64,000 nucleotides of DNA from Pratylenchus scribneri (Eukaryota > Nematoda > Chromadorea > Rhabditida > Pratylenchidae). The position numbers and the translations under genes were made by a program. How positions within the stretch are numbered: the first letter of the stretch is position 1; the number at the start of each line of letters is the position of its first letter. Below are positions 26,807 to 48,326 of the stretch, piece after piece. The stretch is from assembly GCA_030063045.1 (NCBI GenBank), contig JAQSEB010000150.1, positions 496,001 to 560,000 of the forward strand. Direction: 5' to 3'. Below the pieces are notes generated by a model. The model worked only from the letters and a program-made list of their open reading frames with translations, made no database searches and was not told the origin of the DNA.

Positions 26807-26853
26807 ACTACATATCCCAATGACTTTTAAATAATTTTCATACGGTAGCACCC
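26807..26853 (+). repeat. Polinton left terminal inverted repeat
   Basis: 47 bp starting actacatatcccaatgactt and ending catacggtagcaccc. It matches the reverse complement of 52644-52690 at 43 of 47 positions, the outer 23 bp perfectly. Similarity stops inward of this block. Confidence 0.92.
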
Positions 26854-27238
26854 AAGCGGAAGGGTAAGGGGTAGGTATTTAAAATTAATTTTGGCGCTTG
26901 GATATAATGTCACTTTTGGATAAAAAGTCATATAAAATTGGAACGCTTCCAAAAATAAATGGAGCAATATATAACCCTTGCGTATGAATATAGTGGCCTG
27001 TCCATCTGTTTTAAGGATAAATTATCACGACTTGGAACAATTCCAAAAATGAATGATAGAATGTACGGGACAGACAATGTGAGTTGGATACAAAGTCTTG
27101 GCATTCTGTTTTCCCGTAATTTAATTAATTTGAAAAATTAAATGTTTGGAAAAATAATTTGTTTGGTAAAATCAATTTATTCCTTTAAATTTGACGTTCC
27201 TTTGAATGTTCTTCAACCAATATTTAACAACCGGAACA
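26854..27238 (+). other. Left subterminal region of the Polinton
   Basis: No supported gene. Two similar words, ttggaacgcttccaaaaata (about 26938) and ttggaacaattccaaaaatg (about 27031), are about 93 bp apart and each begins with a small palindrome. They may be binding sites or a degenerate repeat. A 60-codon ORF across the second one has no recognisable feature. Confidence 0.5.
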
Positions 27239-27701
27239 ATGAGAATTCGTTATTATCATCCAGGCCATATGCCAAATGCAATTCGTCAAAGTAAATTTCT
27301 TTTCAAAAAATGGCACTTTATTTAAATTTTAGTGATGAACATTCACGAATATTGTATGCTCCACAAATATTATTTCAAGAAGGATGAGTCCGAGCCGTAC
27401 ATTCTTTGCATATACCGCTTTCAAGGAATTCCCGCAAACAATAATCGAAACCATTTGGTGGGCCATGTTGTTGAGGAACAATGGATGAGCAAAGATTGCA
27501 CTTCATCGGAGATGCTTCAAGGTTTTGGAATTCTTTTTATCACAACAAAAATTTTTATCATTAGAAGCAGGTCTGATTGACTCGGAATTTTCCAATGTGG
27601 TCTTCATTTGGTTCAAGGATTATTTGCCGCATGTCCCCTGGCGCCGCGTAAATGTGAACCTTCTTGATGAACAATCGGATGAAGAAATAACAATTGAATG
27701 A
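27239..27701 (+). CDS. Uncharacterised 125-residue Polinton cargo protein
   Basis: Three exons (27239-27290, 27333-27521, 27565-27701; 378 nt) with GT-AG introns of 42 and 43 nt; the frame is continuous only after splicing. The start codon is completed in a Tyr/His/Arg-rich N terminus and the end is acidic (DEQSDEEITIE). The middle has a few His and Cys residues, and FIWFKDYLPHVPWRRV is a hydrophobic-aromatic stretch. I recognise no domain. It is the leftmost gene of the element, oriented inward, followed on the opposite strand by the F-box/RING gene. Confidence 0.6.
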
Positions 27702-27865
27702 ATTGGATAATTCACTTTGCATGCAATTATTCACAATATCAATTACTTTTGAATAAAAACTGGAGAAAGAACATAGTCGCCTAGGGGTTTCGTCCTTGAT
27801 TTAAGCATTTAGGTAAGGGTTCAATTCTTTTTCGGATAAATTAATTTTTTTCTTCAACAATTTTA

Positions 27866-28822
27866 TCAATGTTGGTCCCATAGGGGTGAACAAACTGTAC
27901 AAAGATTAAAATCATTATAACAATCTTCATGCATAGTGTGAATTCCCCAAAAACATTTTCTGAATGCATTTGGACCTTTGCCTTTCCAATTTGAATTTGT
28001 AGAACGTGTTGGGTGATAATGAGCATTTCGTTGGCAATTCCAAAATTGGCAAGGTCTATAGCCCGAATTCATGCATAGAACACATAAAATGTCTTCTTCT
28101 TCTTCCGGATTTTCCCAATACCAATTCAAATCGCAAAGCAGAGAATAACGATGTCTCGTTCTGCTAAATTCTTGATCAAATCGGCCATTCCTCAATTCTC
28201 TCAATTTTTGACCGATTTCCATCACTTTTTGTCGTCGCCTTTGTCTATAATCAAGCCAATATTTTCGAATCCAAGAGCCAAGCGAATAGGAAGATAAAAT
28301 TGCTTGTGATCGACCCTCTTCCATTACGCCATCCTCATCTACTATTTTTAGGTGATATGGTATAAAGCTGGCAATTTCTGCTAACAATTCGACCGGTAAT
28401 TTGCGAACGATAATTGCATTTTCAATTCTCAAATTTAACAAACTTTATTCAATTCAAAAAATTGCACAATATGCATCTCACTTTTCTTGATTCTTCTTTT
28501 CTCGTCGCATTTTGATCTCATATTCCGAAAAATCCGGATAATTTGCATCACTGAATTTGAAGAGCAACTCAGCCATATCCATATTCATAAGCACACATTT
28601 TCGGCAAAACGATTGCTTGAAAATGAGCCGATCATTGTCCTGAGTTAACTTTGAACGAAAAATTTCAAAACGTTCATTGCCCATCTTGTAATTCTCGTCG
28701 CGGCACTCTTCACAGAAATGCAAACTCGCTGGCCACTTAGGTCGAGCTAATGGAAATTTATAATCCGATTGATGAAAGAATTAAATAAAACCTATTTTCC
28801 AAAATGTTTTCTCCCGATTCAT
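27866..28822 (-). CDS. F-box plus RING-H2-like protein with N-terminal zinc site
   Basis: Three exons on the minus strand: 28822-28792, 28746-28482 and 28442-27866, joined by introns of 45 and 39 nt (the second with a strong GTGAGA donor). The N-terminal part has FCEECRDENY and FCRKCVLMN, a paired CxxC zinc site. The third exon opens with RKLPVELLAEIASFIP, a typical F-box. The last about 75 residues have CVLC, CQFWNC, HTMHEDC and CTVC, spaced like a RING-H2 finger with an insert. F-box proteins recruit substrates to Skp1-Cullin ligases and RING fingers bind E2 enzymes; having both in one chain is unusual. Inferred role: redirecting host ubiquitination. The annotation depends on the splices; the F-box/RING exon itself has no ATG near its start. 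Confidence 0.65.
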
Positions 28823-29061
28823 GACATTTGAGAGTCGAGATCGCTCAAATTTGTTGACCAATTCGTCGACTTCACCATTGCTTTCACCTTCGGTTTTGGA
28901 CATTTCGGTTTCTTCTCCATCGGTTTGGGTTGCAACTGCTGAGTTTTGCATTCACATTTGAATTTTGGTTTAATAAATCTACCACGAGAGCTTTTAGCAT
29001 TTTTGGGTTTAATTTCATTATCGGCACTTCGTTTCACACCTTGTTCTTTTTTTGTAGCCAT
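28819..29061 (-). CDS. Small basic protein, 80 residues
   Basis: Single ORF rich in Lys and Pro (RGRFIKPKFKCECK, KPKCPKPKVKAM), likely nucleic-acid binding or a nuclear signal. Its stop overlaps the ATG of the F-box/RING gene as ATGA (28822-28819), so the two may sit on one transcript, or this ORF may be an upstream or alternative 5' exon of that gene. It faces the PAZ gene across a 263-bp shared upstream region. No known family recognised. Confidence 0.5.
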   Translation of the reverse strand: MATKKEQGVKRSADNEIKPKNAKSSRGRFIKPKFKCECKTQQLQPKPMEKKPKCPKPKVKAMVKSTNWSTNLSDLDSQMS

Positions 29062-29324
29062 TATTGAATCAAGAGCACAAATTGGACAATTATTTGGAAT
29101 TTTGTCAAATTACGAAATTTTTATTTTCAAAATGAATGAATGAAAAAGGATGAGAATTGACATGAAAGAGGATGAGGACGCTTGACTCATCCACTCGATC
29201 GATATTACGCAATACCCCGCCCATTCCCCTCCCTCATTTCCCTCGCTGACCCTTATTTTCTTTCTCTGACCTACATTTTCTCTTTTGACCCACATTTTCC
29301 CTTTTTGACCCACATTCTTTAGAA
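29062..29324. promoter_or_regulatory. Divergent upstream region between the basic protein and PAZ genes
   Basis: 263 bp between two diverging genes. It contains pyrimidine-rich tandem words (tttgacccacatttt, three copies at about 29262-29318) and ends in attctttag just before the PAZ ATG, a likely trans-splice acceptor. The ORF on the opposite strand here results from the repeat. Confidence 0.45.
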
Positions 29325-29873
29325 ATGACCTCCAAAACTCCTCTCTTAAAAGTTTTATCAAAATTGTTGGACTGCAACGAATCAGCCCTTCAAGAGAGAC
29401 TCAACCATCCTCTAAATATTCAAAAGGTTAATGACTTCCTGCAGGGCAAGGAATTGCAGACATGTTATATGGATAACCTTGGAGAATATAGGGAAATTAA
29501 TGGATCAAGGTGCAGAATTGGGACAAAATCCTCTCGTGAACAACATGCATATGAGGGATATTTGGGCATCACTGTTGAAGTGAATTGAAAAATAATTATT
29601 TTATTTTAATATATTTTTCAGCACCATTTTTATATCCGACGTCGTATCCGTCTTCAATATCCCAGAATGCGTTGTCTAATGGAAATGACCCAAAGCGGTC
29701 ACAACAAATATTATCCCCTCGGTTTGACCAATTCATTTGAAATAAATTATTTTCCATATTTAGAATTAATTATGCTCGTCAATAAAAAGGAAGAAGTGAA
29801 AGAATTCGATGATAATAAAGAAAACCATTTTTTCCCTTGGACTCATTTAACAATTAAAACACCAGTTCATTAA
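29325..29873 (+). CDS. Stand-alone PAZ-domain (Argonaute-like) protein
   Basis: Two exons, 29325-29579 and 29622-29873, give 168 residues. The first about 45 residues resemble the linker before PAZ in Argonautes, ending in FLQGKEL. The rest follows the PAZ pattern: CYMDNLGEYREI as the early strands, then GITVE at the end of exon 1, HHF at the start of exon 2, RIRLQYPRMRCL, and KYYPLGL. These correspond to the family's V-x-x-x-F ... L-x-YP-x-L-P-C-L ... Y-x-P-x-E motifs that line the pocket for a small-RNA 3' end. No PIWI, MID or Dicer domain is present in the gene or elsewhere in the element. It sits directly upstream of the packaging ATPase, 21 bp apart, so it is likely co-expressed with the core. 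The fold assignment is by eye. If right, the protein could bind host small RNAs without slicing; this role is inference. Confidence 0.72.
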
Positions 29874-29894
29874 GATTTTTTCTATTTTTTTAAT

Positions 29895-30584
29895 ATGGAA
29901 TATTCTAAATTTGATGCCAACGAAATAAAATTTCCAATTCCATCTGGAATAATTGTGAGTGGTCCATCATCTTCAGGTAAAACCGAACTTGTGCTCAGAC
30001 TACTCGAAAATGCTGAAAATATGTTCGAGCCAAAACCAAAAGCCATTCTCTGGGCCTATGGTGAATTCACGGAAAAAATTGGTCAATTACAGAGGAAAGG
30101 GTATCATGTCTATCAAGGGGTGCCTTCAGAAGAAACTGTTGCCAATATGCCCAAACCATTTATTTTTGTTTTGGATGATTTAATTCAAGATATAGACCCG
30201 AAACGATTAGCAAATATTTTCACCAGGAATAGTCATCATCAAAATTTCACTCCTATTTTCATAACTCAAAGCCTCTTTGACAAGGCGATGCGGGTGCCTA
30301 GGGCAAATTCTCATTTCATTTTCCTATTACGTTGTCCTAATGATCAGCAGAGTTTGAGGAGCCTAGCCAGTCAATTATTTCCAAGGGAGAACGAATATTT
30401 CTACAGTGCATATAAACAAGCCTGTGAACGAAAATTTGGCTACATATTAATTTCCCTTCACCCCTCAATTAGCAACAAATTGAGATTAAGGTAGACAAAT
30501 TGAATTGAATTTAATTTAGAAAGTTTTAGAACCAATATATTCCCTGGTGAGGAACAAATTGTTTATTTACCAAAAAATGGTTAA
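29895..30584 (+). CDS. Polinton packaging ATPase (A32/FtsK-HerA type)
   Basis: Exon 1 29895-30490 and exon 2 30524-30584 encode 218 residues. Walker A is GPSSSGKT in GIIVSGPSSSGKTELVLRLL (residues 18-37) and Walker B is FIFVLDDL (about 90-97). IFITQSLFDKAMRVPRANSH matches the sensor region of viral genome-packaging ATPases of the double jelly-roll lineage. Exon 2 supplies NIFPGEEQIVYLPK, a C-terminal stretch usual in Polinton ATPases. Expected role: pumping DNA into capsids. Its stop overlaps the next start (30577). Confidence 0.92.
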
Positions 30585-30957
30585 AAAGGAACGACAACCT
30601 ATTGGAAAATTACCACTTAAGCATTATGGATTTTTGAAAAGAATGGCTCGAACAAAATCGGATAGGAAACGACAAAAATTAATAAAATCGGCAACCAAAG
30701 ATCAATTATTGGCATTGATTGAAATATCCACAAATTTATTGTCCGATTTCAGACTAACAAATAGGCAAAAGCGGAAACTTCTACCGTATGCCCCACTGGT
30801 GAGGAAATTTTCCCGCATTCGGAGTGAAGGTTCAGCAAGAAAATTTCTTGAACAAAGGGGGAGTGGTCTTCCCTTCGCTGCTCTTTTGACTCCAGTATTA
30901 ATTGAAGCGGCATCTCATTTAATTTCAAAAATTACTAGAAATGGCAGCAGCACTTAA
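30577..30957 (+). CDS. Conserved small basic Polinton protein
   Basis: 126 residues from the ATG inside the ATPase stop region. Lys/Arg-rich N terminus, then LLALIEISTNLLSDFRLTNR, KRKLLPYAPLVRKF and a C-terminal Gly-Leu-Pro-Phe with a hydrophobic helix (FAALLTPVLIEAASHLI). A protein of this build occurs in many Polintons next to the structural genes; I take it as a DNA-binding or core-type virion protein, function not established. Overlaps the following ORF by 17 bp. Confidence 0.7.
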   Translation: MVKKERQPIGKLPLKHYGFLKRMARTKSDRKRQKLIKSATKDQLLALIEISTNLLSDFRLTNRQKRKLLPYAPLVRKFSRIRSEGSARKFLEQRGSGLPFAALLTPVLIEAASHLISKITRNGSST

Positions 30958-31858
30958 ATATATTCTGGTACCAGAACCAAATTTTAAATCCCTTTTGACT
31001 GAAACAACAAAAACAACAATGCCTCAAACCGGGAAAGGAATAAGCGATGACTTGGAAGAAAAGACCCTATTTGAATTTGTCAAAAAGAAACTTAGCCAAG
31101 CGAAAAAAGGAAAGAAGAAGAATGCAAGCACAAAGAACGTATTATTTAATCAGAGACTCAGAAGTTATCTCAAAGCCCGTAAGGCCTTGCTTAATCGCCC
31201 TATGAAAGTCCAACTTGATTCTATTGGGAAAGAATTAATTTCTAAAGGAGGAGAAAAAGCAATATTGGATGAAAATGGAGAATTGGAACCTATTCAGAGA
31301 CAACCTTCAGTGAGAACGCCAAGAGAATCGGTTGATGTTTATAGAACAGCCGGCTCCACTGCTGATTGGTCGGGTGCAGATGATACAGTATTTGACCACA
31401 CCCCTACAACAACTCAACAATTAGAAACACCAATTATAAAAACTAGAAGGCAACAGAGATTAGAGAAATCAGAAGGAGAGAAAAAAGAAAAGCAGCAGAG
31501 ACTAAACGCATTGTCAAAATTAATAGCAAGTAACCCTTCGAAATTTGGTGTCCTTAGAGATGAAGAGGGCAAATATGCTATAATGAACCCTCAAACTAAA
31601 AGACCAGTCTTTAATTCTTCTATTGTGGTTGCCCTTAATCGTTTGATTAATCCCACCCCCGATTTGGCCTCTCCTCCTGGAATGATTTATTTGAGGAGAA
31701 AAATATTGGAAGACCCGGAAGCTAGTCAATTAATTCACCAAAGCTCTAAACAATCAGGAAAAGGATGGTTAAGACAAAGAAAGCACAAAAAGGTACGCGG
31801 AAAGAAACACAGATTTCAACCAATGAGGTGGAAGAAAATACAAAAACGAAGAAAATAA
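30941..31858 (+). CDS. Conserved Polinton protein starting with a VPEP motif
   Basis: 305 residues. The opening LKYILVPEPNFKSLL resembles the start of an uncharacterised protein family common in Polintons. A basic middle (KKLSQAKKGKKKN), a low-complexity Thr/Arg-rich linker and a C-terminal domain with RPVFNSSIVVALNRLI and PPGMIYLRRKIL follow, then a strongly basic tail. Likely a structural or DNA-associated protein. The last 94 bp overlap the integrase start in another frame. Confidence 0.65.
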   Translation: MAAALKYILVPEPNFKSLLTETTKTTMPQTGKGISDDLEEKTLFEFVKKKLSQAKKGKKKNASTKNVLFNQRLRSYLKARKALLNRPMKVQLDSIGKELISKGGEKAILDENGELEPIQRQPSVRTPRESVDVYRTAGSTADWSGADDTVFDHTPTTTQQLETPIIKTRRQQRLEKSEGEKKEKQQRLNALSKLIASNPSKFGVLRDEEGKYAIMNPQTKRPVFNSSIVVALNRLINPTPDLASPPGMIYLRRKILEDPEASQLIHQSSKQSGKGWLRQRKHKKVRGKKHRFQPMRWKKIQKRRK

Positions 31859-32999
31859 ATACAATATATACGGATCCTAATAATCCCGGTGGTTTCAGTG
31901 GATTTGTCAATTTGTATAGGGAAGTTAAAAGAAAATATCCAGAGATTACGAAAAAAGATGTACTCCATTTTCTTGAAGGAAATCGGACTTATACTCTATT
32001 CAGGGGAAGAAGGCGTAATTTTAAAACATCAAAGACAATTCCGATGGGTTTTATGACAAGTAGAATCTAAAGATCTTGTTCCAAATTTTTGTTTTAGATT
32101 TACAGGTGGATTTGGCCGATTTTCAGAGTTTAGCGGAAGAAAATGAAGGTTATCGATTTTGTTTGTTGGGTGTCGATGTCCTAAGTCGTCGGGTGTTCGC
32201 TGTCCCGATAAAATCCAAATCCACAAAAGATATGCTGGAAGGATTTGAGGAGCTTTTTAAACAAATGCCACATCTTCCATCTGAAATTTACTCTGACCGT
32301 GGATTAGAATTCGAAAGTGGGGAAATGAAGAAATATTTCAAAGATAAAGGGATTGAAAAATTTTCTGCACGTAGTAGCTATGTAAAAGCAGCTGTAGCTG
32401 AACGATTTATTCGTAGTTTAAAATTGAGACTTTATCGATGGATTTCTGAGAAAAATTCCTTAAAATGGTCCAAAGTTTTGCCAGAAATTGTAAATGCAAT
32501 GAACAATACAGTCAATGCAGCAACAGGGATGACCCCGAACCAAGTGAATCCGAAAAATGCCAGCATTCTTTGGGACAAACTTTATAGGGAATATCTTTAT
32601 CCAGAAAAGAAGAGAAAGACGACAAAATTCAAACCAGATGATGCTGTTCGTTTGGTAAAAAAGAAACAAACATTCGAAAAAGGATATTTGGCTAATTATT
32701 CAGGTTTGTTAATTAGTCATACATGCATATACCCATTTACAGATGAAATATATAAAATAAAAGAGGCGAGGAAATCAAACCCAGTGGACTATTATAAATT
32801 AGAGAATTATAAAGGGGAGACACTGAAGGGAAGAGCATATGCACCAGAGCTGGTTAAGACGCGACTGGATGCAGACACAACCTATAGAATAGAGAGTATA
32901 TTACAAGAGAGGAAAAGAAATGGTGTAAAAGAATTACTGGTGAAATTTTTCGGTTATCCCGAATCATATTGGATTAAACAATCAGATGTTGTTAATTAA
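31765..32999 (+). CDS. Polinton integrase (DDE, with chromodomain)
   Basis: Exons 31765-32059 and 32098-32999, 398 residues. The N-terminal part has IYTDPNNPGGFSGFVNLYRE and KYPEITKKDVLHFL, typical of Polinton integrases. The catalytic D-D-E set is the Asp in VDLADF just after the intron, the Asp of YSDRGLEFESG, and the Glu of VAERFIRSLK. The C terminus (TYRIESILQERKRNGVKELL, then VKFFGYPESYW) is a chromodomain, which may guide insertion into marked chromatin. The 6-bp duplication around the element fits its activity. Confidence 0.93.
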
Positions 33000-33096
33000 T
33001 TTGAATAAATCATTCTTTTTAAAAATTAATTTCTATTATCAATGTTTATTTCATTTTAATATTTAATTTATTCTGAATGAATAAATTCAATTTCAG

Positions 33097-34287
33097 ATGA
33101 GTAATTCATTTTATGTGATTGTTCCAAGCACTGGAACGGATAATCAAACGAATAAATTTCGAGTACAATTGCCTAGGAAATTGATATTAGATGGACCTGG
33201 ATGGACTGTGGGATTAGCTGGAATAATTTACCCAAATAGTTGGGCATCAATTGGAGCCCATGAAGACCAATTCCTTGCTATTCAATTAAAAAGCGGTGAA
33301 ATCAGACATTATAAAATTCCTAAGGGGAGCTATACTTCGGCTAAACATCTTGAGCAGAGCCTTTATCATGGGATTATCCGAGATATGGAAAGACGAATTC
33401 AAGAATCAAAAACTCATGACACGAGGACCAATAGAGCTAAAAGAAAAGTGAATGACGATGGAGAGGCACCCCTTCTTCCAGCCTCGTATAGACCACCAAC
33501 AAATACGGCTAAACAAACTACCCAAAATTTACCGCAAAATCAACAACAAATTTCCCAGTCTTCCTTAACAGAAAATCAATCACCGGAAAAAGGAATGGCG
33601 GAATATCAGAAAGAATTAGAATATTTAGAGGAACGTGATGGCTGGGCTTATGCACTAGCTTTAGAAATTTATTTACAACGGTTTAGAGCTATTTTAACCA
33701 TAGAAAGCCCAAATTTGAATGAACATATTGGAAAAAATTTTTCAATTTTCAAACAATATTATGACCAAATTGAGAAAGGTGCATTACATCCCCATATTAT
33801 GACAAAGGAAACTGAGGAGAATTTATTAGCCTACGCAAGAGCAATTCGCTTTGTTTACAATGAACACATTAGTCGATTTGAATTTGTTTGTACGGATGAT
33901 CGAATATCACATGTCAGATTGACCCCACAAATTGCCTATGCTCTAGGATTTGAGGAAAATATTAAAATAAAAAATGGAAATGTAGCCCGTTACGCACCAG
34001 ATATTCGAGGGGCAATGTCACAATTATGTGTCTTTATGAATCATGGAGTAATGGAATCAATCATCTTTGGCAATTCTTTTTCCAATCTACTTCAATTGGT
34101 GGCTGTTGAAGGAGAAAGTGGCGCTACAATTCAAAAACTCTTCACAAATCCACTTATGCATCGAGTGGTGGCACGAGAGATAGATAGTATGGATTTCGAA
34201 ATACGCTCAATAGACGGAAGACTTGTTAAATTCGATTATGGACAAATCACCCTGACACTTCTATTTAAAAAAGCAATCTATTTCTGA
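33097..34287 (+). CDS. Polinton minor capsid (penton-like) protein
   Basis: 396 residues, ATG directly after aatttcag (trans-splice-like acceptor). The N-terminal FYVIVPSTGTDNQTNKFRVQ, then WTVGLAGIIYPNSWASI, is the usual opening of the Polinton penton protein, which has a single jelly-roll. A Pro/Gln-rich insert lies near residues 125-170. A C-terminal region with RLTPQIAYALGFEENI is also typical of the family. Expected place: capsid vertices. Followed 24 bp later by the pVI-like gene. Confidence 0.85.
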   Translation: MSNSFYVIVPSTGTDNQTNKFRVQLPRKLILDGPGWTVGLAGIIYPNSWASIGAHEDQFLAIQLKSGEIRHYKIPKGSYTSAKHLEQSLYHGIIRDMERRIQESKTHDTRTNRAKRKVNDDGEAPLLPASYRPPTNTAKQTTQNLPQNQQQISQSSLTENQSPEKGMAEYQKELEYLEERDGWAYALALEIYLQRFRAILTIESPNLNEHIGKNFSIFKQYYDQIEKGALHPHIMTKETEENLLAYARAIRFVYNEHISRFEFVCTDDRISHVRLTPQIAYALGFEENIKIKNGNVARYAPDIRGAMSQLCVFMNHGVMESIIFGNSFSNLLQLVAVEGESGATIQKLFTNPLMHRVVAREIDSMDFEIRSIDGRLVKFDYGQITLTLLFKKAIYF

Positions 34288-34311
34288 GTTCATTTAGATT
34301 ATTTTAAAAAT

Positions 34312-34884
34312 ATGGTTAGACAAATATTTGACGGGAGTAATCTCCGCTTAAGTCAGCAATTTTCTCAAGATGGAGGTGGATTTATTGGGCGTTTTGATCA
34401 TGCCAGTCCCTATCAGAGAGGTTATGGCCATTTCTCAGCTTTGACAAGACAACGAGGGGCTGGGGTTGGTTCAGTTTTACGAAATGTTTGGCGTTATTTG
34501 AGGCCATTGGTCTCCAAAGTCCAACCCATAACCACAAATATTGGAAAGGCTGTAGGACAGGAAGCACTATCGACTACAGCTAGAGTATTAGGTTTTATTT
34601 AAATAAATTATTAATTAAAATTAATAATAAAAATAGATGACGTAGTGAAAGGGACGGATTTGAAAACGTCGGTGACTAATCAAAGCAAGGAGGGGATTCG
34701 TAAATTGGCGAATAGGGCGGCACAAAAATTACAATCAGGGGGCGGGAAGAGGCGGGGCCGAAAGTATAAAAGCAAGGGGAACAAACGAGGCCGCGTCATT
34801 TTAAAACCAGAGTTAATTGGACAGTCAGTTCCAGGAAGAGCTTTATTAAAAAAGAGAAGAGCAGATAATCTAGGATATTATTAA
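34312..34884 (+). CDS. pVI-like minor virion protein
   Basis: Exons 34312-34591 and 34637-34884, 175 residues. A Gly-rich N terminus (GAGVGSVLRNVWRYLRPLV) leads to an amphipathic helix and KAVGQEALSTTARVL. Exon 2 continues with SKEGIRKLANRAAQKLQSGG and a basic tail (KRRGRKYKSKG). The arrangement matches the small protein found beside capsid genes in Polintons that is compared with adenovirus pVI (internal cementing, membrane-active). The comparison is by pattern, not search. Confidence 0.7.
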
Positions 34885-34887
34885 AAA

Positions 34888-36483
34888 ATGTTGTACAAAA
34901 AGGTGGATGGAGCCAGCCCTAATTCAATTTCAGCGGCATTGGACTTATTCTCTACCCCTCCAACGAATTGTGCGGTTAGTAACAGTATGTATCGGCTTTA
35001 TCACCCATTAAATCCCATAAAGTTAGTAATTTTATATAATTAAATATAATTTTTCCTTATTTTAGTTCCATTCCTTTCCTATTTAAAATACATCCATTGA
35101 CTTCGATGATTGATCTTTCTAATATATATGTTATTACTGAAATGCAGTTAAAAAAGGTTAATAATGACGGTGAATTGGAAGATTTAGCTGCCGGCGAAAT
35201 CGTAGCCCCTATCCAAATGCCCGGTGGCACTTTTATAAGAAATTTAAAAATTATGCTTAATCAGAGGGAGATTTACGATTCTAATCAATTATATAGCTAT
35301 AAAGTGTATTTGGATACGGAGTTTAGTTACCCAACAACAGTAAAGGATGCCTATCTTTCGGCTTCAGGTTATCACAGAGAAAAAGAAAATCCAAATAGAG
35401 TCGCCGATGACGGTTATATTGCCCGTAAAAATGCATTCGCTAGCAGTAAGACAGTACAATTCATCCATAAATTGAGTGCTGATATCCTAAATCAAGATCT
35501 CTATTTGTAAGTTTTTTCATAAGAAATCGATAAAAATCATTATCAGAATCACAAATACGGAAATGGATATCGAAATTACCCCCCAAAATGATGACTTTAT
35601 GATTATTCAATCGTTGGTCGCCCCTGCAGCGGCAGTTGTTCAACAGCCAGCTGCTGGTGCAAATCCACCTGCAGCTCCGGCTGTTGCTGCAGTGCTACCA
35701 AAATACAAATTAGTTATTAATAATATTGCCCTACAAGTCAAAACGGTAATTTCTTTGCGATTGATAAGACTGATAGGAAATTTAGATTGATTTGATGGAT
35801 GGACTCTCTCTGGAGTTAAATACAAAATTAAACTCAGAGCCTGCACGTTATGGAATAAGGAAAACTTCGATAATCACATCTTTTATTAGTGCGGGCCGTC
35901 GTGACTTTATTTCCACTCTATTCTCTGATGAGGTCCCAAGACGTATTATGATTGGTTTAGTGGCAAACAAGAGTGTTATGGGTGATAAGCATACATCGCC
36001 ATTCTTTTTTGATAATTTTTCTGTACGAGAAATTGAATTGATGGCTAATGGACGAGTCTATCCACAGACCCCATATAATTTAGACTATCCAAATAGCCTT
36101 TTTATAAGAGCTTATCACGATTCACAAACAAACTTAGGATTTGCCGGAACGAATGAAAGTAATGGAATAACATATAAAATGTTCAAATCAGGCTGGAATG
36201 TTTACTGTTTTAATTTGACAAAGTACTCAATTAAATTCCCTTTAAATTCAATCGATATTTTTAGCGCACAAGAGGAGACGCCAGGCTTTGAGCTGGTTAG
36301 AGATGGATGCACCATGATAACCATTAGGTTCTCTGCCGATGTACCACCCGGAGGGATCCAATTGGTTGCCTATGCTGAGTCAGATGGTCAGTTTAGTTTC
36401 GAAATACTGTACACTAGTCATTCTTTTAAGGTCTTATTATGGTTGACCGGAATAGAACAATAACAAGTGATTTAACTGTATGA
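34888..36483 (+). CDS. Polinton major capsid protein (double jelly-roll)
   Basis: Five exons: 34888-35021, 35066-35506, 35547-35745, 35786-36386, 36431-36483 (1428 nt, 475 residues). The N terminus has LDLFSTPPTNCAV. Exon 2 has DLSNIYVITEMQLKK and TFIRNLKIMLNQREIYDSN. Exon 4 has FISAGRRDFISTLFSDEVPR, then IMIGLV, and VYPQTPYNLDYPN. The last intron is needed to reach the usual C-terminal pattern ending VDRNRTITSDLTV. These are the signatures of the Polinton major capsid. An Ala/Pro-rich loop (about 35625-35695) is probably surface-exposed. All introns are 40-45 nt. The stop overlaps the next ATG. Confidence 0.9.
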
Positions 36484-36674
36484 TGGAGACTCAAGAAAAA
36501 CAATTCCAATTCCAAACCCCAATTGCTTGTGATTTCCCTCAAATTTTGGATAAATCCCCGATAAATTTAATTTTTTGTATACTATATTTTCTTTTTGCCC
36601 TTTTTATTACCGGTTCAGCCCTTTATTTTTATTGGTATGGGAGGAATGGACAACAAAACAATAGGTTATTATAA
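36480..36674 (+). CDS. Small one-TM protein
   Basis: 64 residues with one membrane helix (LIFCILYFLFALFITGSALY) about residues 30-49 and a short polar tail. The ATG overlaps the capsid stop (ATGA). A donor at 36664-36665 and an acceptor ending at 36705 (intron of about 41 nt) would give an alternative, slightly longer tail. Small membrane proteins near capsid genes are common in Polinton relatives; function unknown. Confidence 0.65.
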   Translation: MMETQEKQFQFQTPIACDFPQILDKSPINLIFCILYFLFALFITGSALYFYWYGRNGQQNNRLL

Positions 36675-36705
36675 TGAATTTTCATTATACTTTCTCTCGA
36701 TATAG

Positions 36706-37168
36706 ATCGCCTGTTGAGCTCAAGCCCAAAGACCAATCGCTTTTATGAGGGAACATATCCTTCTGATAGGATTCCAAATTGCAGAGATTTCCCCTGCGGG
36801 ATGGTCATTAATCATGTCAGATTTTTATCATTAAAAAACAAACAAATAGTTGGATTTAGGATAGCTCGAATGGGAAGGGAACTCATTGGTCAGCCCTTTG
36901 GGTGCAAAGAAAGAATAAAGCATTCTGGTTCGATTCATTTGGTCGACCTCCACCTCTGAATATTAGCCAAATTTTGAAGAATAGATTTGAAAATATCGAA
37001 TATAACCCCCATAAATTTCAAAATTTGTTAGAGGATAATTGTGGCCATTACGCTATTACTTTCCTTCATTTTATGAGCTTAGGCTCCCTATTCCCCGAAA
37101 TTATTAAATTTTTTAAAAAATTAAATGATCCTGATAATTTTGTATTTAATTATGTAAATAATTTCTAA
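36706..37168 (+). CDS. Adenovirus-type cysteine protease (Polinton PRO)
   Basis: Exon parts 36706-36815 and 36860-37168, the intron (36816-36859) setting the frame. Motifs: FYEGTYPSDRIPNC before the junction; after it a catalytic His in GTHWSALWV, then FWFDSFGRPPP, and the nucleophile in EDNCGHYAI. This His ... Cys layout is that of the adenovirus maturation protease (C5) family used by Polintons to process capsid proteins. The 5' end is unresolved: the frame is open upstream only to a TGA just before 36680, and no in-frame ATG is visible, so the first exon may be upstream or initiation unusual. Confidence 0.8.
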
Positions 37169-37182
37169 TAAATTGCAGATAA

Positions 37183-38077
37183 ATGTTTTTCTTCATTTAC
37201 TTTTTTCTTTGCTTTTCTGATGCTCTGGAAATAAATTTGGTGTCGGAAAATCTGGATTCAATAAAATTGGATGAAAAGATCTTCAAATATGAATCTAGAG
37301 ATGGTTTCGGCTATTCAAAGGATAAAGTAATTTTTTCGATTTTGAAAATGAATTATTTAATTTCTCCAGATTTGTCTCCTTCATAAACACAATAATTTCT
37401 TCGGTTTTCAACTTTTCAATATTTGGACAATGGAATTAACAACACAATTCCCTTTAAATATTCGCAAAAACGACAATGTACCGATGGCTTGCTTTCATTT
37501 TAATGAATTCACATTCATTTTCATCAAAAATAAATTTAATTATACAACAATTGTACGAGGAATGCAGCAAAAAACCATCAAAGGACTTGAATATGATTTT
37601 CTTTCATTCGACAATATTCATGAACGGCTCTTCGCTATCAAAAATGGAAAAATTTGGGAAATTGATCTCATTTCTATAAACAACCTCTTTTCCTATCCAG
37701 GAATATTGAATAGTGCAAATATTCAATTAAAATTTATTCAAAACATCAATGTAACCTCAAAAGTTTCTATCATGAATGATCATCTTTTCATTTTTAATCC
37801 AAATAATATATCAATTTTTCTTATTTACTCAAAATGTAACCCTCAAATCATAAAACTACCTACCCTCAAACCTTTTAATCTTTTCTTAGCCCCATCAAAA
37901 TCAATAATTGAATCCCCCACTTTTCCATTTCATTGGATAATAATCGCCTTCTTTCTTAATATTCCAGCCTTTCTACTTTCCTACCATCTTTATAATAAAT
38001 ATCGAAATTATCTCCCTGTTCTCCAAACAATTCCTCTAAATATAAACCGTCGAACTGAAATTTTCACTTCAGTTTAA
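37183..38077 (+). CDS. Type I membrane protein with propeller-like ectodomain
   Basis: Exons 37183-37326 and 37370-38077, 283 residues. N-terminal signal peptide (MFFFIYFFLCFSDALE). The ectodomain has N-glycosylation sequons (NYT, NVT, NIS) and FLSFDNIHERLFAIKNGKIW, which resembles a blade of a YWTD-type beta-propeller. A membrane helix (WIIIAFFLNIPAFLLSY) precedes a short tail. Placed at the end of the structural block, directly after the protease, it may be a virion surface protein, but no fusion or receptor domain was recognised. The function is unassigned. Confidence 0.65.
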
Positions 38078-38124
38078 TATGAACAAATTTATCTAATAAA
38101 ATATTTGAAATGATAAAAGTGAAT
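38078..38124. terminator. Shared 3' end between convergent genes
   Basis: Only 47 bp separate the stops of the membrane protein (+) and the DNA polymerase (-). The segment contains aataaaatatttg, a possible poly(A) signal for the plus strand. Transcripts from the two strands may overlap. Confidence 0.45.
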
Positions 38125-41100
38125 TTAAAGATGGAATATTTTCTTTAGGATATCCTTATATTCTGAATTCATATGGAGGAGATAATTCAATGGATTGGAA
38201 GGGTGGTATCGATTGGTTAGAGTTTCAGAAAGGTCATCTCTTCTTTTGCTGTGATAATAGGATTGAGCATAATATTCATCATTCCTTGGGTCTTTCAAAT
38301 CGCCGCTGTATCCATAGGGCACAATTTGACCATGTGAGAGCAAAATTCCTTTCATCAAATTGATGACAAACTTTTTCTTTGAATGGACAGTGTGGATATC
38401 CCCGGGGATGGAAATCCTGAAATGGCGAGTGTCCAATTCCATTGGTTCATCTTCAATTCCTTCCATTTTTCTCAAAACTCTTCTTTTCAATTCTTCATGA
38501 TTAAAAATTTGCGAATTGCCTATGTCCAGAGTGACCCCTAAATTAAACAAATTCAAAGAGAAATAAAGGTCAAAAATTACCTTTCAATTTTTGGTCGTAC
38601 CAAATATTGCCTTCTTTATTTCTCATTTTCACCGTATAAACTTTCGCACCGCCACTAATAATTTCGAGTATTTCATCATTTGGGTAGACCTATAATAATC
38701 TTTCTTAGAATAAAAAAACTAAAAAAATACATCGCTGAGTTCGCCCAAATGCATTCCTCCTTGAATTGGGTCCCCAAAAATATCGGAATATTCATATGCA
38801 ATAGAATCCTAAAAATTTTTATTAAATAATTACGATTTTAAGCCCACTGTGTCCATATAGATAATTCGAACGTCTTTTCTTTTCAATAATTTTTGCAAAG
38901 CTTTGAGGAGTTGAACACGTCCACAAGCTGTAGTCCAGGCTGCTATTATTATATTTGATGAGGGATTTTCCATGATGAATTCATCTTTTGTTCGAAAGAC
39001 AAGCATTGTTGTAAAATCATCGATTTGATCAATTAGAGAAAATTCAATTTTGGGGTCATTCAAATATTGGGCCAATTGTGCATCAGTATTTACAAGGACG
39101 GTTTTAGAAAGTTGATTTCTCAATGCAAATCGACCCCACAGACCTATAATGAATAATTTATCATTTAATTACTCGTAAACTTACAATTCAACATCAATTT
39201 GGCAATGAATTTTAGTCCAGGATTAAAACTGATATCTTTGGGTTTGATATCTAATCCGAACTCATCATTGGCCTTTTTGCAATATTCCCGCATTGCTTTG
39301 ATCTGAGCCGCCCCTTCCAAATTTTTGATTTCAGCAGGCCATCCCGAACTAATGTATTTCAAACGGAGGAATTTCCTGACATATCCCTTGAACAATGCAT
39401 CATCCATATCCTCATTTTCCCAGCAATAGGCTCTGAATATTTTGGTGACCCGATAACCAGCCTCTAATGCTTCAGATAATTCCAATGATGTCATTGTTGC
39501 TTCCCACCCTCGTTCTTTGTCATCAAAATGGGTGCAAAAGTAATCAGGATCATATTTGCCTTGTTTGAATTTTTGAGCACATTTTCTAAAATTTTAAATT
39601 TAAATTTATAAATAAAAAATTGATATTACTTGCACAAACTGAACAGCAATCTATTGTCGCTGAAACGATGCGGTACAACTGGAATGTCGATATGTCTCGG
39701 CGGGACAAGAAAAACTTTTGAGATGCTTCTTGCCAAACAATTGTGGTCATCATCAATAATTTGGTATAGATCATCTGATTTCGTAAAATTCACTTCTTTA
39801 TTCACAATTGTGCACTTTGGATGATTTACAGGATAGGATTGGAAAAAATTTCTAAATAACGAATCAATTTAAATAAAAAATTGAATACTTACTGGCTCGG
39901 ATAAAGGCTGACAAAATCATACATTTTAACCTTTCTCTTGGAAATTTCTTTTATCCATTGTTCTGCTGTTTTGTCATAAACCGTCACATTCAAATCGGCT
40001 GGATTCCCATTCAAATTCATTGGAATTTCATTTTGTTCAGCCGAAGCTGTCAACCATTCAGGCCCAGTTCTTCCCCTAGAAATAATTATTTTAAAAATTC
40101 ATAATAATGAAAACCCGAAGAAGGCGTCTCGAATATTCAATGGGCCAGTATCGCAACAATTGTCCATGAATGCCTTAAATTCGGGATCCTTTTCGTAGAG
40201 TTCATCGATGCTAAAAATACATTTTAGGGTTAAACTGGATCATTTACTCACTCATGTTCCCAAAATACTTTCAAAGTCATTTCCTCCATAATGGCCTCGC
40301 ATTTTTCGACATTCTGCTGACGAATATCACCCACTCTTCTACCGGATAACACATCATCATCTTCCAATTTCTCATAGCATTTCGGGCACGCATGCCAGTG
40401 ACATCCAAAGATTTCAATCGCTAAAGGTCCATCATAGCCCGGTCTATTCTCCACATATCCATCGAGTAAATACTTAGAATAAAATAAATAAATTTTTAAG
40501 TTAATTTTACTTGTCTGTATCGTTTCTCTCCGCCATTATCCACATGTTGGATATCCCATCCTTTGGCTTCCGCCAACCATTTTAAAAATCTTCTGGCCTT
40601 AGTCGATTGTTGTCCCATCCGTTCATAACCCAAATGCGGGACCAGTGCCAAATATTTCTCTGGTAAATTCGTTCGGAAATACTGAAAATGAATTAATTTA
40701 GATAATAAGAAAAACACAAACTCTCATGCAAGCCGCACTAATGGTCACTGAATCGAGGATATTCATTCCAGTGACATCTCGAAAAATTTCGATCATCTTT
40801 ACGAGGCCATGGGTCAGAATTTTCACATCTTAATGAATATTTTTAAAGAAATTTTTTCAAAGAAACCTGCACTGCAATATTCGGCTAATTTTTGGCATAA
40901 ATTGAATTCAGTATAATAATTTTTTTCGTACCATTCATCGAATATTTGCCTTGCTTTCTTTAATAGACCATCGGCGTTGTAATGAATTTTGTCCGGTAGA
41001 TGTGGAAGAGTGATACCATAATTGCATGCCTGAACAATATTTAGATATACTTTAATTTAATTTACCTTATTAAACCCGTACGGAAACCATAGTTTTCCCT

Positions 41101-41785
41101 CTAATCTTCAATATTCAGTTGAAAAGTTTCAACAAAATTGGCCAATTTGAGTGGAATAAGATTGTAAGTGTCTCGGAATATTGTCGGATTTATCACACCT
41201 TTTTTGCGAAGAGACATTTGGTATAATTTGTTCCCTTGCCGAGTCAAACTTAATTAATTTAAAATATTTGAAATAAAACTGGAATGCATACTTTGGAATT
41301 AATCCGGAATTTCTTATAATGTCTCCCAAATTTCACCGATTCCTTTTTCCAATTGTCCAATTGTTGCTTCAAAGATACTTTTCAAGACTTCATCTGGGTA
41401 GAGTCCATCCGGATATTCCACATTCAAGATGAGAAATTCGGCCATGAATCGATATCCTTTAATAATTAATTTGATTTTCTTATTATAGAAAAAATAACCT
41501 TTAAAACGTTGACTTGTCGCTTGAGCTGCACTTATGCACCGAAAACCCTCGCCGTCAAAATTCTTTTCGTTAAGAACACGATTCATCGGATTTTCCTTGA
41601 CTTTTTGTGGACTTTTCCCTTGACCGGCACCTTCTTGAATTAATTCTCTTGCTTCCTATAAATTTTTATTTAAATTTTTCTTAAATTTTCTGAATTACAT
41701 CTTCTTCTGGTTCCCAAACTTCCATTTCTTCCAAATCCATTCTATCAAGAACGGGCATTTCATCAAAAATGTTTTGTTGATTCAT
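38125..41785 (-). CDS. Protein-primed DNA polymerase B of the Polinton
   Basis: About a dozen exons on the minus strand, start ATG at 41785-41783. In order: an N-terminal region of the Polinton polymerase type (GLIP, then LYQMSLRKKGV and LWFPYGFNKACNYG); SVTISAACM and NGGEKRYRQ; GPLAIEIFGCHWHACPKCY near 40390; motif A MYDFVSLYPS near 39915; VFLVPPRHIDIP near 39700; motif B (KLMLNC and LWGRF, split by an intron near 39150); motif C near 38855, where an intron separates the codons of MDT from those of DS; then KGVTLD. All three palm motifs are kept. Two frame breaks, each one base short in a small homopolymer (41331-41333 and 41103-41104), lie in the N-terminal part. The copy is therefore dead or mis-sequenced there. 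It should replicate the element using a terminal protein. Confidence 0.9.
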
Positions 41786-42376
41786 TTTGTCTTTGTTTGA
41801 ATTTGTTTTATAAATCAAAAAGAATGAATTTTCTTAAAATGAACAAAATTAAATCGGAAAAGAGGTTAAATTACGAAATTTAAAATAAAAGTGATTAAAT
41901 TTTTGTTTCAAAATATTTTCCCTTTCCTGTCAACACTCTTGGATCGGCTAGGTAATTAATCAAAGCACAAAAATTTATGTTCGAAAAAAACAACATTTCC
42001 GTCCCGTCTCGGATGAGGGAGGTAAAGCGAGGTGAAGCGAGGTAATTAGTCAAGGTGCGAAAAATTGCGCTAAGATCATATCTTGTCTACGTAAAAAAAA
42101 ACTTACTCAATGAGGGAAATAATTCTTTTTTGTTTTTCTGGCCAAGACAAAGTGGCGAAAAAATGGAATTGGTATATTGTAATATGGGAGATCTTCTTAT
42201 CATTCGTCCTTGGAAATCATATTTAATTTCGACCTGTTTTTCTGGACATTTTATTTATTACTCTTTAAAATAATATTTTCATTCAAACTTTTATTTTTTA
42301 ATGTGATTTAATTTCTTTTTGATTTTATAGAATCCTACGAATCTTACAAAAAATCCTATAAATCTTTCCCAAAACA
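41786..42376. promoter_or_regulatory. Divergent upstream region of polymerase and 423-residue protein
   Basis: About 590 bp between diverging genes. A GC-richer patch (41930-42080) holds repeated words: ggctaggtaattaatcaaag and cgaggtaattagtcaaggtg, plus two gaggtraagcg words. They are candidates for a regulatory site. A 72-codon ORF (42055-42273) has no recognisable feature. Confidence 0.45.
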
Positions 42377-43950
42377 ATGTCAATGTGGGCGAAGCCATAT
42401 CACCAATTCTCTCGCGTCTACATGGCCAGATCCATGTTTAATGGAATGAAGGAATTTAATTCCTGCATGGAAATTATCGTAGTGGTGAGCTCAATTACAA
42501 TAATTTGAATTTTTATTTTAAAAACAGAATGAGGAAGAGAGTCGCCGGCTCATCTTCTCCGTCGATCGAATTGCTGATCCATCTCCCCGAGCAATAATTA
42601 CGGATTGGATCTGCGATGCCCTCTACAATTTCAAGTTTCCATGCATGGTTTCATGGCGTCCATCCTATCTCTACACCAACCACAACATCAAATGCGACAA
42701 TTCCAAAGTGATTGGCGACGAAAAATGGCTGCTCAAGGATGGTTACAAGGATGAGATTTGGCCATATTTGCGAGATGGGAGAGTGCTGTGCGGGGCTGGT
42801 TGGTCAGAATGGATCCAATTCACTAAATTGGGTGAAGCAATCACCTACTTGGATGGGAGAGGACAAGCCTCGGATTTGGGCTATGGATTGGAATTTTTGA
42901 TTTGGGTAATTCGGGGAAAATCTAGGGATTTAAATCAATATTTAGAGCCCAAATCACATTGGTCGTGGGTGCATCGTCCTCAAACCGCCCAAAAAATCTT
43001 TGGTGGAGTTCCTGATCCAATCGTTCATGGGCTTTTCGCTGGATGCTGTCTCCATCAAAATCCGAGATGTGTCCTGGCAAGGCAAATCAAAGATCGGAGT
43101 GATACACCAAACCCCTGGAAATGTTCTTACAAAAGAACAATTCTTCGCCCGAATTCAAAACGAAACCACTCCGTTCAATGTACAAGACCAAGGTGAGTTT
43201 GAAAAAATTGAATTAAAAAAGAAAAAAAGTAATTCCAGTTGATGCACCGGCAATTGGCCCAAGAACTCCTCTACGAATGCGGGAGAGACTCACCTGCGAA
43301 CACTGCAAAGGTAATCCAATTAATCTATGAATTTTTGATAATGTTCAATTATAGGATTCCACCGTTCTGGTGATTGCCTCAAGACCCCACCCAAATCCAG
43401 TCCACCAAAGGGTAAGGAAATTTTTGAAATTTAATTATTTTCTTATTTTAGGAATTCTCAAAATGGCCACTCCATCGCCTGGCACTTTTCGAAAGGCGAG
43501 TGAAATGTTCCCAAAGCGAGGTCCAAATTAATATTTAAATCCCATTTGAAATAATAATTTTTAGGCCGCAGAGGATCGAATTCATCAGAACCAACTCCAG
43601 TCAAGCGCAAACGTGTTGTGACTTATCTGAAGAAGAGTGCCCCAAAAGCTTCGGAAGATGGTGCATCAACCAGTCAAGTGATCCCTCCTCGCAAGAAGAG
43701 AGGTAAAAGATTAACTCAAATATTTTTAGTAATTTTTAACTATTTAGGACGTCCAGCAAAGCAGAAGGCGAAAGAACAATTGGCAAAAGTGGTCAAATAT
43801 GAGAAGGAAGAGGATGAGAACGATGGCGAGATTTTGAGCGAAGGAGAAGAAGAGGAGGGCGAAGAAACATCATTCATAGTGCAAGATGAGGAGGAGGAAA
43901 TGAGCTGGCCATCGATGGAGGAATCGGACGAAGAAGAAGATGAAGAATGA
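42377..43950 (+). CDS. Zinc-knuckle/AT-hook protein, 423 residues
   Basis: Eight exons: 42377-42484, 42528-42905, 42946-43192, 43239-43310, 43355-43411, 43452-43520, 43565-43702, 43748-43950 (1272 nt). The first about 245 residues form a globular domain I do not recognise (LIFSVDRIADPSPRAIITDW; KWLLKDGYKDEIWPYLRDG; SLDAVSIKIRDVSWQGKSKI). Then comes a C-X2-C-X3-H-X4-C zinc knuckle (CEHC ... HRSGDC), a basic linker, an AT-hook core (KKRGRP, itself split by an intron) and an acidic tail of Glu/Asp. This build suggests a nucleic-acid-binding accessory or replication protein, possibly a single-strand binding or Gag-derived protein. It is divergently placed from the polymerase. Confidence 0.7.
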
Positions 43951-44328
43951 ATGAATGAATAATGAGAAAAGAGATTTGGATGAATTAATCAATGAAAGAA
44001 TTACTTAATCTAATTGTGAATTAGCAGATTAAGTTAGAATAAAATGTTGAATAAAAAATAAAGAATTTAATTTGATCTAATTTTATTACATTGTAGCTAA
44101 TATTCTTTAGCATTTTATTTCTTATTTATTTTCCCCTTCCTTTTGAGAGTACAAATTCCATGAATCATGGGGAAAAGCGGGAAGGAAGGAAGGGGAGGGG
44201 AGAAGGAGTGGGTGTTGAAAAGCTATTATCGCCTATCGGATAAATCAATATTCTCGGCCAAGTAAGGGAATATGGAAAATGGAATTCATTCAATCCACAA
44301 TTCAAATTCTTTGGATAAAAAAAAAAAA
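43951..44328. other. Intergenic region, AT-rich with a purine-rich patch
   Basis: No gene. Contains aataaaaaataaag (possible poly(A) signal for the upstream gene) and a G-rich stretch at 44168-44215 (gaaggaaggaaggggagggg). It ends in an A13 run just before the next ATG, with no obvious acceptor. Confidence 0.5.
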
Positions 44329-45518
44329 ATGTTTTTCTTCATCCTCCTCCTCCCAATCACAATGGCATATAGAATGGAAATGAGGGCAATTGACAAAACC
44401 GGTTGTTTTACACCTATTCAACCCATAATATGTATGGATAAACCAATTGGCAATTTTGTTCTTGAATGCCAGGTTAATTAAAATTAAATTCGTCAAAATA
44501 TTTTTATAGGATTCGAGCAAATCAATGGTTTGTCCCGAATGCCCAAAGCCAACCACCAAGGAATGCCCAATCTGTCCAATATTTCCACCAACAACGTGCC
44601 AAATTCCGTCAGAACCAATCATCAAGGAATGTCCAATCTGTCCAACAATTCCACCAACAACGTGCCCAATTCCATCAGAACCAATCATCAATGAATGCCC
44701 AATCTGTCCAACAATTCCACCAACAACGTGCCCAATTCCGTCTGATCCAATCATCAAGGAATGCCCAATCTGTCCAACAATTCCAACAACAATGTGCCCA
44801 ATTCCATCTGAACCAATCATCAAGGAATGCCCAAAATGTCCAACAATTCCAACAACAACAATTGAATGCCCAAAATGTGAAATAATTGGACCAACAATGA
44901 TGGATTGTCCAATTCCGACACAACCCTTCACCATCGAATCATTGGTTATGGTAATTTTCAGAATTAAATTGAAATTAATAATGATATATATCTTCAAGAT
45001 TTGGGCTGGAACCATCATTGTTGTTGTGTTCTTTTCCATCATCGGAACAATTGCAATTCAAGTGAAAATTAGATGATTAATTATTAAAAATATTAAATTT
45101 TATCAGAGAATTATTGAACGACGGAGGTCGAGAAGGAGGCCAACATTTCAAATGAGGCAAATGTCAGGGAGGAGGAGGAGGATGCAACCACAACCACCAA
45201 GCAGACCACCACCACCAAAGCTTCCACCGATTCCCGAAGTAAGAAATTTGCATTTTTAAATTAATTTTCAAAAAAATTTAGCATGTCTGTGGGCCAGACT
45301 GTGCTTCTTTCTCAAGTGAGGATGCGGCTGAACAACTACAACAAAATGGAGTGGGCCAACAACAACAACAAAATGGTGAGTGCCAAAAACAGCAAATCGA
45401 CGGCCAACAACAAGAATACAATGAAGAAGGCGAATTACCACAGCAACAGGAGGAAGGAGAAGAAGATGAAGAACGTGAAATCTTTTATAGTATTTTGTTG
45501 ACTGATGAAGAAAATTAA
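44329..45518 (+). CDS. Type I membrane protein with Cys-Pro repeat ectodomain
   Basis: Five exons: 44329-44472, 44510-44950, 44999-45061, 45107-45238, 45282-45518 (1017 nt, 338 residues; all introns phase 0). N-terminal signal peptide MFFFILLLPITMAYR. The ectodomain holds four to five copies of a 22-residue unit built on ECPICPTIPPTTCPIPSEPI, giving regularly spaced CPxCP pairs, so probably a rigid, disulfide-linked stalk. A membrane helix (IIVVVFFSIIGTIAI) follows. The cytoplasmic tail is very basic (RIIERRRSRRRP), then proline-rich (RPPPPKLPPIP), then Gln-rich and acidic. The proline motif could recruit SH3 or WW proteins; the CPxCP units could bind metal. No homologue recognised. A role as surface or attachment protein is inference. 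Confidence 0.75.
44550..44860 (+). repeat. 66-bp coding repeat of the CPxCP protein
   Basis: Tandem units of 66 bp (22 codons) containing gaatgcccaatctgtccaac, nearly identical in nucleotide sequence including silent positions, so recently expanded or homogenised. The apparent ORFs in other frames here are shadows. Confidence 0.85.
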
Positions 45519-45902
45519 TTTTTTTATTTATTTAATTAATTTTATATTTTATTTAATATATTTTCACATTTCCATTTAATTGAATAAATAATTTTAATAA
45601 TTTTATTATTTTCACTTTCTCACTTTTAGCATGTTCATTTAATGGGGTATTCTTGTTTTCTTCGAGATTAAATCTGAATAATTAAACAGTGGAATTTTAT
45701 TGTTGTTCTTTTTTCAAATTTTAAGGATATAGCATATTTTGTCGGAGATCTCAATCTAATAATGAAAGTGTTTTTATAAATAGATCCTTTTTCACTAATT
45801 TATTCATTTTTCCCATTCTCCACAAAAAGCCGTTACTGGCTTTTTTCAATATTTTTTCAAAAATTTATTATTTTTATATTTTCAGATTAATTAATTTTTA
45901 TT
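45519..45902. other. Intergenic region, AT-rich
   Basis: No gene seen. The first 80 bp contain aataaataattttaataa (possible poly(A) signal for the upstream gene). Confidence 0.5.
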
Positions 45903-46436
45903 ATGAGCGAGAGAATAATAATAGCAGCTATTAATGCTATCGTCCGTATTGCCGAATTTGTTATAATGGCAACAGCAAGTGATTCATTTTATTTGTTTTT
46001 AATTTAATTATTTATAATTTATTAAGGATTCCAAAATGGAGGTGGAGGAGGAGGCGGTGGTGGTGCGGGCGGTGGACCAGGCGGTGGTGGCGGCGGAAAT
46101 GGTGGCGGAGGAGGTGGAGGCCCAAATGGGCGAGGTGGTGGCGGCGGCGATGATGGAGATGGGAGAGGTGATTTTTTTTGAATAAATTAATTAAATTTTT
46201 ATTAATAATTTAAAGGTGATGATGCTCCACCGGCACGCCGCCCGTTTTTTGGGAACGCAGCATTCGCTGGCCGAGCAATGTCACCATTCGGCAACAACGG
46301 ATTTCAGGACCGTGAACGAGACCGCCCCCGGTCCCCTTGGAACCCCCCAAATGATGACGGCTGGGGCCGGGGGTGGGTAGACGAGAACGGTCATGGAGAG
46401 GACATGCCCATCCAACAGAGCGATAATGAAGAATAG
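45903..46436 (+). CDS. Glycine-rich protein, 145 residues
   Basis: Exons 45903-45978, 46027-46167 and 46216-46436 (438 nt). A short hydrophobic N-terminal segment (RIIIAAINAIVRIAEFVIMA) could be a signal anchor or helix. Residues about 27-75 are almost pure Gly with a few Asn/Pro/Asp. The end has Arg/Asp-rich RDRERDRP-like charge and Trp motifs (DDGWGRGW). Such composition occurs in RNA-binding and in secreted proteins; no assignment. The splices are supported by frame and GT-AG sites. Confidence 0.55.
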
Positions 46437-48320: not shown

Positions 48321-48326
48321 TGAGCG

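Follow-up and report, generated by a model that had tools for sequence, protein, structure and literature searches.

A stand-alone PAZ gene carried by Polintons of the nematode Pratylenchus scribneri

The window analyzed here is a 64,000-nucleotide stretch of the Pratylenchus scribneri contig JAQSEB010000150.1 (C150:496001-560000, in a genome of 227 Mb in 276 contigs). It contains a Polinton with a two-exon gene at 29325..29873, which is predicted to encode a PAZ-only protein, and related genes lie beside most of the Polinton ATPases found in the genome. It is slightly more likely than not that the Polinton PAZ derives from one likely capture from a WAGO Argonaute and that, through a predicted grip on the 3' ends of small RNAs, it would starve the silencing Argonautes of the host of their guides.

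Identity and copies of the PAZ gene

The sequence-only reading of this locus proposed a 168-residue gene of two exons beside a packaging ATPase, and its coordinates prove exact, the splice being a prediction (Table 1). The next open reading frame (ORF), directly 3' of the gene, is the packaging-ATPase candidate. The window protein alone scores 15.4 bits (E 0.018) against Pfam PAZ (PF02170), which is under the cut-off of 28.8; therefore, the PAZ identity was pursued through relatives. A protein database search results in 66 related proteins, whose named sources are Meloidogyne hapla, M. enterolobii, M. incognita, Globodera rostochiensis, G. pallida and Aphelenchoides avenae. A second search results in 28 proteins, 5 of them new, and no further named taxon. 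Meloidogyne and Aphelenchoides are clade IV nematodes. Against a profile of 55 relatives the window protein matches with 99.3% probability (E 4e-20, 120 columns), and a neighboring ORF of the window, used as a control, reaches 0.1%. The Pfam PAZ cut-off is passed by 7 of the 10 relatives scanned (top score 41.7 bits). Only Argonautes are matched in the PDB, both by a profile of the window protein with 13 relatives (27 sequences, best E 8.5e-12) and by the 55-relative profile (28 sequences, best E 2.7e-15). The fold predicted for one relative is a PAZ fold. The PAZ assignment of the sequence-only reading thus holds through the family profile and the predicted fold of a relative, and the window protein by itself stays under the Pfam cut-off. 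Pfam finds no PIWI domain and no Dicer domains (helicase, RNase III) in the 168-aa gene, as had been proposed; the genome was not searched for Dicer near it. A chance or mis-called PAZ motif is ruled out by the profile match with its control and by the linkage to the ATPase across copies. A remnant of an Argonaute or Dicer gene is ruled out as well, since the gene recurs at typical element positions and PIWI is not nearby. Among possible viral relatives, 67 stretches of IMG/VR contigs fit a pattern, none of which was confirmed, and a viral model library gives no match at E <=0.001.

The PAZ gene is spread more widely than the sequence-only reading supposed. A genome search with the window PAZ protein gives at least 155 matches and one with Pfam PAZ at least 149, and the 168 aa are identical at three genomic places, the window included. 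The ATPase candidate served as the anchor for locating Polinton copies. All nine ATPase copies at 95-100% identity have a PAZ gene 542-556 bp upstream, and a PAZ place lies within 17 kb of 143 of the 193 listed ATPase places, compared with at most 3.9% of random points. By ATPase class, PAZ is near 9/9 in class A (about 550 bp upstream), 17/17 in class B (about 1 kb upstream), 11/30 in D1, 22/27 in D2, 5/10 in D3, 4/4 in class E and 3/12 among the unassigned ATPases, where the counts are of copies and not of independent events and the absences are upper bounds (among the matches listed). The class C count is 72/84, at a median of 10 kb downstream; it includes at least one such place, C110:292811, where the PAZ belongs to a neighboring class A element, and three places at odd offsets that are perhaps also neighbors' PAZ genes (C180:4399, C19:870440 and C72:488316). 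PAZ is recovered by profile and by the predicted fold of a relative, and homologues are present beside most other Polinton ATPases found, at the same place in class A.

The Polinton genes and the host Argonautes mostly differ in their surroundings. In an earlier set of 189 PAZ places, 111 have an ATPase nearby and no PIWI exons, 27 have PIWI exons and no ATPase, 2 have both and 49 have neither. Of the 113 places near an ATPase, 111 have no PIWI match within 12 kb (71 of the 105 PIWI matches were used). Some of the 49 places near neither acquired an ATPase neighbor with a second ATPase search. For the D2 copy at C19:2618781, the nearest PAZ place is in a stretch with PIWI exons, probably a host Argonaute, and a second PAZ is at the usual offset. 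Depending on the family, the PAZ gene is linked to the ATPase, the protease and the DNA polymerase B (PolB) region; in a related block on another contig (L063) it is 0.45 kb past the protease. The D1 copy L067 (C36:412000-415500) keeps both the protease and the PolB-like ORF and has no PAZ ORF between them. The PAZ gene follows the protease in close relatives of L067, which is a case of presence and absence within one family.

Other forms of the gene were also observed. In one more family, a spliced PAZ gene occurs in each of two inverted stretches (L064 and L065, C118:1800-4000 and 17500-19500) that are 99.5% alike over 1,708 nt and about 15 kb apart; their relatives on C28, C42 and C93 are about 0.9 kb from an ATPase. 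The class C PAZ proteins L047, L048, L049 and L050 have long acidic tails with CxxC pairs, the length of which varies by copy. The Polinton copies C139:561641-584779 and C203:163243-191841 sit between PIWI exons of their contig and look as if they may have been inserted into Argonaute genes, or the arrangement may be due to chance. Frames of 2338-3606 aa with a short PAZ-like stretch occur at L066 (C46:518000-519500), C234:111122, C223:247484, C30:10068, C110:695537, C46:1066824 and C46:1606864. The stretch in L066 covers 45 residues and scores 31.2 bits against Pfam PAZ, over the cut-off. These frames are perhaps another repeat family with a piece of PAZ.

Pocket, selection and origin

The 3'-end pocket was followed in six columns, which we take to be AGO2 H271, Y311, R315, H316, Y338 and L339; PDB entries named R315V/H316A are among the profile matches and agree with this numbering. 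Among the 55 relatives the six columns have a mean entropy of 0.76, compared with 1.81 for the domain, and 138 of 100,000 random column sets have an entropy this low. H fills the H316 column in 55/55, the R315 column is R or K in 54/55, and the Y338 and L339 columns are Y or F in 55/55. The columns at AGO2 R277-Y279 are poorly kept, and K-Y stands at R315-H316 in the class B gene L045. The pattern suggests that the pocket is typical of the family as a whole, and RNA binding by the window's own copy is less sure.

In class A, the ratio of nonsynonymous to synonymous differences (pN/pS) between the window and six copies is 0.04-0.28 in exon 1 and 0-0.18 in exon 2. In class C, the corresponding ratio of substitution rates (dN/dS) is 0.09-0.46 in 10 of 11 pairs, with four of the pairs saturated (dS >2). 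These ratios indicate that the PAZ gene is under purifying selection. Compared with the window, all six class A copies carry a single gap column in exon 2, and C159 has another in exon 1. In the two of the six copies whose frames were inspected, the exon 2 gap falls beyond PAZ; therefore, the C-terminal tail of the window protein is not common to the copies and the PAZ part is.

The origin of the gene was examined in a tree of 84 columns with 27 stand-alone PAZ rows and 10 Argonaute rows. Thirteen of the 27 come from protein databases and two more are genomic sequences with no listed ATPase close by, so that the placing on Polintons covers the other rows. The labels WAGO, CSR and ALG were assigned from the look of the sequences, and all three trees carry flags for long branches. 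The 27 rows form one clade (support 98/98) against the Argonaute rows, and this clade groups with six WAGO- and CSR-type rows at 96/90. Removal of four long rows leaves a clade of 24 rows at 99/98. With the tree restricted to the 12 rows that lie next to a Polinton ATPase, the clade groups with the WAGO rows at 95/96. Of the nine host Argonaute rows, eight lie within 12 kb of PIWI exons on their contig; the ninth, L006, has no PIWI in the list and an Argonaute-like stretch upstream by eye. The window gene pairs with the class B gene (98/91), in line with their ATPases.

These trees are most simply explained by PAZ having been captured once from a WAGO-like Argonaute, and this is likely. After one old capture, the tree suggests, the PAZ gene would have moved to different places in different families. 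A recent one-off capture is ruled out because the gene is common to distant families. Several independent captures are not favored, although the single clade has a support of just 90/85 in the strict 12-row tree. The intron position in the window gene differs from the breaks in ALG-like and CSR-like PAZ exons, so it allows no inference on the source gene.

Proposed function and its alternatives

A PAZ without MID and PIWI cannot form a full guide complex and cannot cut, so what remains is a reader of 3' ends. The conserved pocket columns suggest that the stand-alone PAZ would grip the 3' ends of small RNAs. Small RNAs bound in this way would leave the host silencing Argonautes without guides against the element, which would protect the element. 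The sequence-only reading named PIWI-interacting RNAs (piRNAs) or small interfering RNAs (siRNAs) as possible ligands. The available portions of PMC4323106 tabulate no PRG-1/PIWI in nematode clades I-IV (none outside clade V) and describe, in the clade IV nematode Globodera pallida, 22-26-nt 5'-triphosphate RNAs that are mainly antisense to transposons. Those of PMC5934874 describe plant-parasitic nematodes as being without PRG-1 and count 36 Argonautes in M. incognita, many of the WAGO and CSR-1 type. Because no PRG-1 is reported there for clade IV or plant-parasitic nematodes, sequestration of piRNAs is unlikely. In view of this small-RNA biology, the ligand would be a 22G-like siRNA made by RNA-dependent RNA polymerase (RdRP) and not a piRNA. 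The more specific proposal is that PAZ was captured once from a worm-specific Argonaute, was selected across clade-IV Polinton families and acts as a sponge for the 3' ends of small RNAs made by RdRP, which replace piRNAs in the defense of these nematodes; it is offered tentatively, with a chance somewhat short of even.

Several observations weigh against guide starvation by a once-captured PAZ. The window gene alone is under the Pfam PAZ cut-off, and its pocket departs from AGO2 at the columns H316 (R), Y311 (H) and E342 (G). Frames are interrupted in several copies, and the support for the stand-alone clade drops to the value given above when only rows beside an ATPase are kept. No PAZ is detected near 19/30 D1 and 9/12 unassigned ATPase copies, both of which are upper bounds. 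Since PAZ is undetected in 19/30 D1 copies, the element can do without the gene.

The main rivals to the decoy reading are a role in element replication and the hiding of transcript ends. In the first, PAZ serves the life cycle of the element by binding single-stranded 3' ends of its DNA or RNA in replication, packaging or export and has no anti-silencing role. That PAZ is linked, depending on the family, to the ATPase, the protease and the PolB region would fit such a role, since PAZ domains are readers of 3' ends and single strands are exposed when replication is protein-primed. However, the D1 copies lacking a detected PAZ, the retention of protease and PolB-like ORF in L067, and the WAGO-type Argonaute PAZ domains as nearest tree relatives all argue against it, and this role is unlikely. 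In the second, PAZ hides the 3' ends of element transcripts from RdRP, so that secondary siRNAs are not made and the amplification step is blocked. The known binding of PAZ is to short single strands and overhangs, which weighs against this mechanism, and it is distinctly improbable. It draws on the same fold and pocket evidence as guide starvation, and RdRP-made RNAs are the anti-transposon arm described for clade IV in the available portions of PMC4323106.

A competitor at the protein level would occupy the partners of the host's Argonautes or Dicer and not RNA, and the RNA pocket would be a leftover, most of all in the family of the window gene. The pocket changes in the window gene and in L045 are consistent with this, but the pocket columns are among the best kept across the 55 relatives, and such a competitor is very unlikely. 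That the gene is a passenger, a functionless fragment of a host Argonaute swept along, deserves hardly any credence: some copies are interrupted and some elements lack PAZ, but the gene traces to one ancestor in Polinton families that have diverged, its frame is open in many copies, pN/pS is low and the pocket is conserved.

Nematodes outside clade V are reported to be without piRNAs. A PAZ-only gene beside most of the Polinton ATPases found in one genome makes an Argonaute-derived decoy against siRNA-type silencing directly testable. If the proposed guide starvation is true, a captured 3'-end reader would join the known mechanisms of silencing suppression, and a mobile element would be using a defense domain against its own host. 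The finding also calls for caution in annotation, as database entries of this kind named 'PAZ domain-containing protein' could pass for host RNA interference genes.

The Polinton element and known systems

The element is a Polinton, perhaps not fully intact (Table 1). Its ends are a 47-nt inverted repeat, 91% alike, and it is flanked by a 6-bp duplication, CAATTC, at 26801-26806 and 52691-52696. The L063 block is collinear with the window at 29.9-37.2 kb, with an ATPase candidate, a small ORF, an integrase, further ORFs, a capsid candidate and a protease. The ATPase candidates of the two are 41% identical and the gene order is the same. The window integrase (E 6.7e-7, 29.9 bits) is just under the rve cut-off of 32.6, and the L063 integrase, to which it is 39-42% identical, is over it at 41.8 bits. 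The capsid candidate has no Pfam match and is 28-39% identical to a 481-aa protein at the matching place in L063; the proteases are 36% identical. The PolB match is over the cut-off in the L067 copy and is weak and split in the window. Outside the Polinton, the window has a Helitron-like helicase gene (Helitron_like_N, PIF1) at 15337-21704 (+) with a Ulp1-type protease ORF before it.

Table 1. Features of the PAZ gene and its Polinton (window coordinates)
Feature	Position	Strand	Remarks
PAZ gene exon 1	29325..29579	+	ATG at 29325; 85 codons; open frame and predicted donor
PAZ gene intron, predicted	29580..29621	+	42 nt, GT..AG; frame analysis
PAZ gene exon 2	29622..29873	+	83 codons and stop; PAZ helix/strands with 3'-end pocket columns, then tail
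Polinton element	26807..52690		25,884 bp, between terminal inverted repeats
Packaging-ATPase candidate	29874..30494	+	Walker A by eye; Pfam AAA_16 weak, E 0.001, under cut-off
Integrase	31750..32999	+	Two overlapping frames, 31750-32070 and 32064-32999; Pfam rve
Major-capsid candidate	34885..36463	+	Three frames; named from position only
Cysteine protease	36678..37168	+	Peptidase_C48 23.4 bits, over cut-off 20.7
PolB-like region	38125..41655	-	Split among frames; DNA_pol_B_2 E 0.011, under cut-off

To our knowledge, a PAZ gene is not among the known Polinton genes, and no description of one in a Polinton was found in the literature searched, which agrees with the sequence-only reading. In the available portions of PMC8288018 and PMC11118728, two papers dealing with transposons in plant-parasitic nematodes, the word 'Maverick' is present and 'PAZ' is absent. 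In those of PMC11071308 'PAZ' is absent, those of PMC6361761 mention PAZ only in Argonautes, and those of PMC4901422 use 'PAZ' once, for alignment trimming.

The element resembles nematode Polinton/Maverick elements in its ends, duplication, integrase, protease and gene order; the PAZ gene is the extra. The Polinton PAZ is about 24% identical to the PAZ of AGO-clade Argonautes (human AGO1 and AGO2; PDB 1SI2/1SI3, 8THQ), but it is transposon-borne and stands alone, with no N, MID or PIWI. Its nearest tree rows are the worm-specific Argonautes (WAGO, CSR-1 type) found in this genome, and they differ in having PIWI exons close by in all but one of the host rows, which the Polinton PAZ genes do not have. 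Viral silencing suppressors that bind small RNA, such as tombusvirus p19, are alike in the predicted outcome, which is that small RNAs would be withheld from Argonaute. Their folds are unrelated, however, and the Polinton PAZ would instead be a 3'-end reader taken from the silencing machinery itself.
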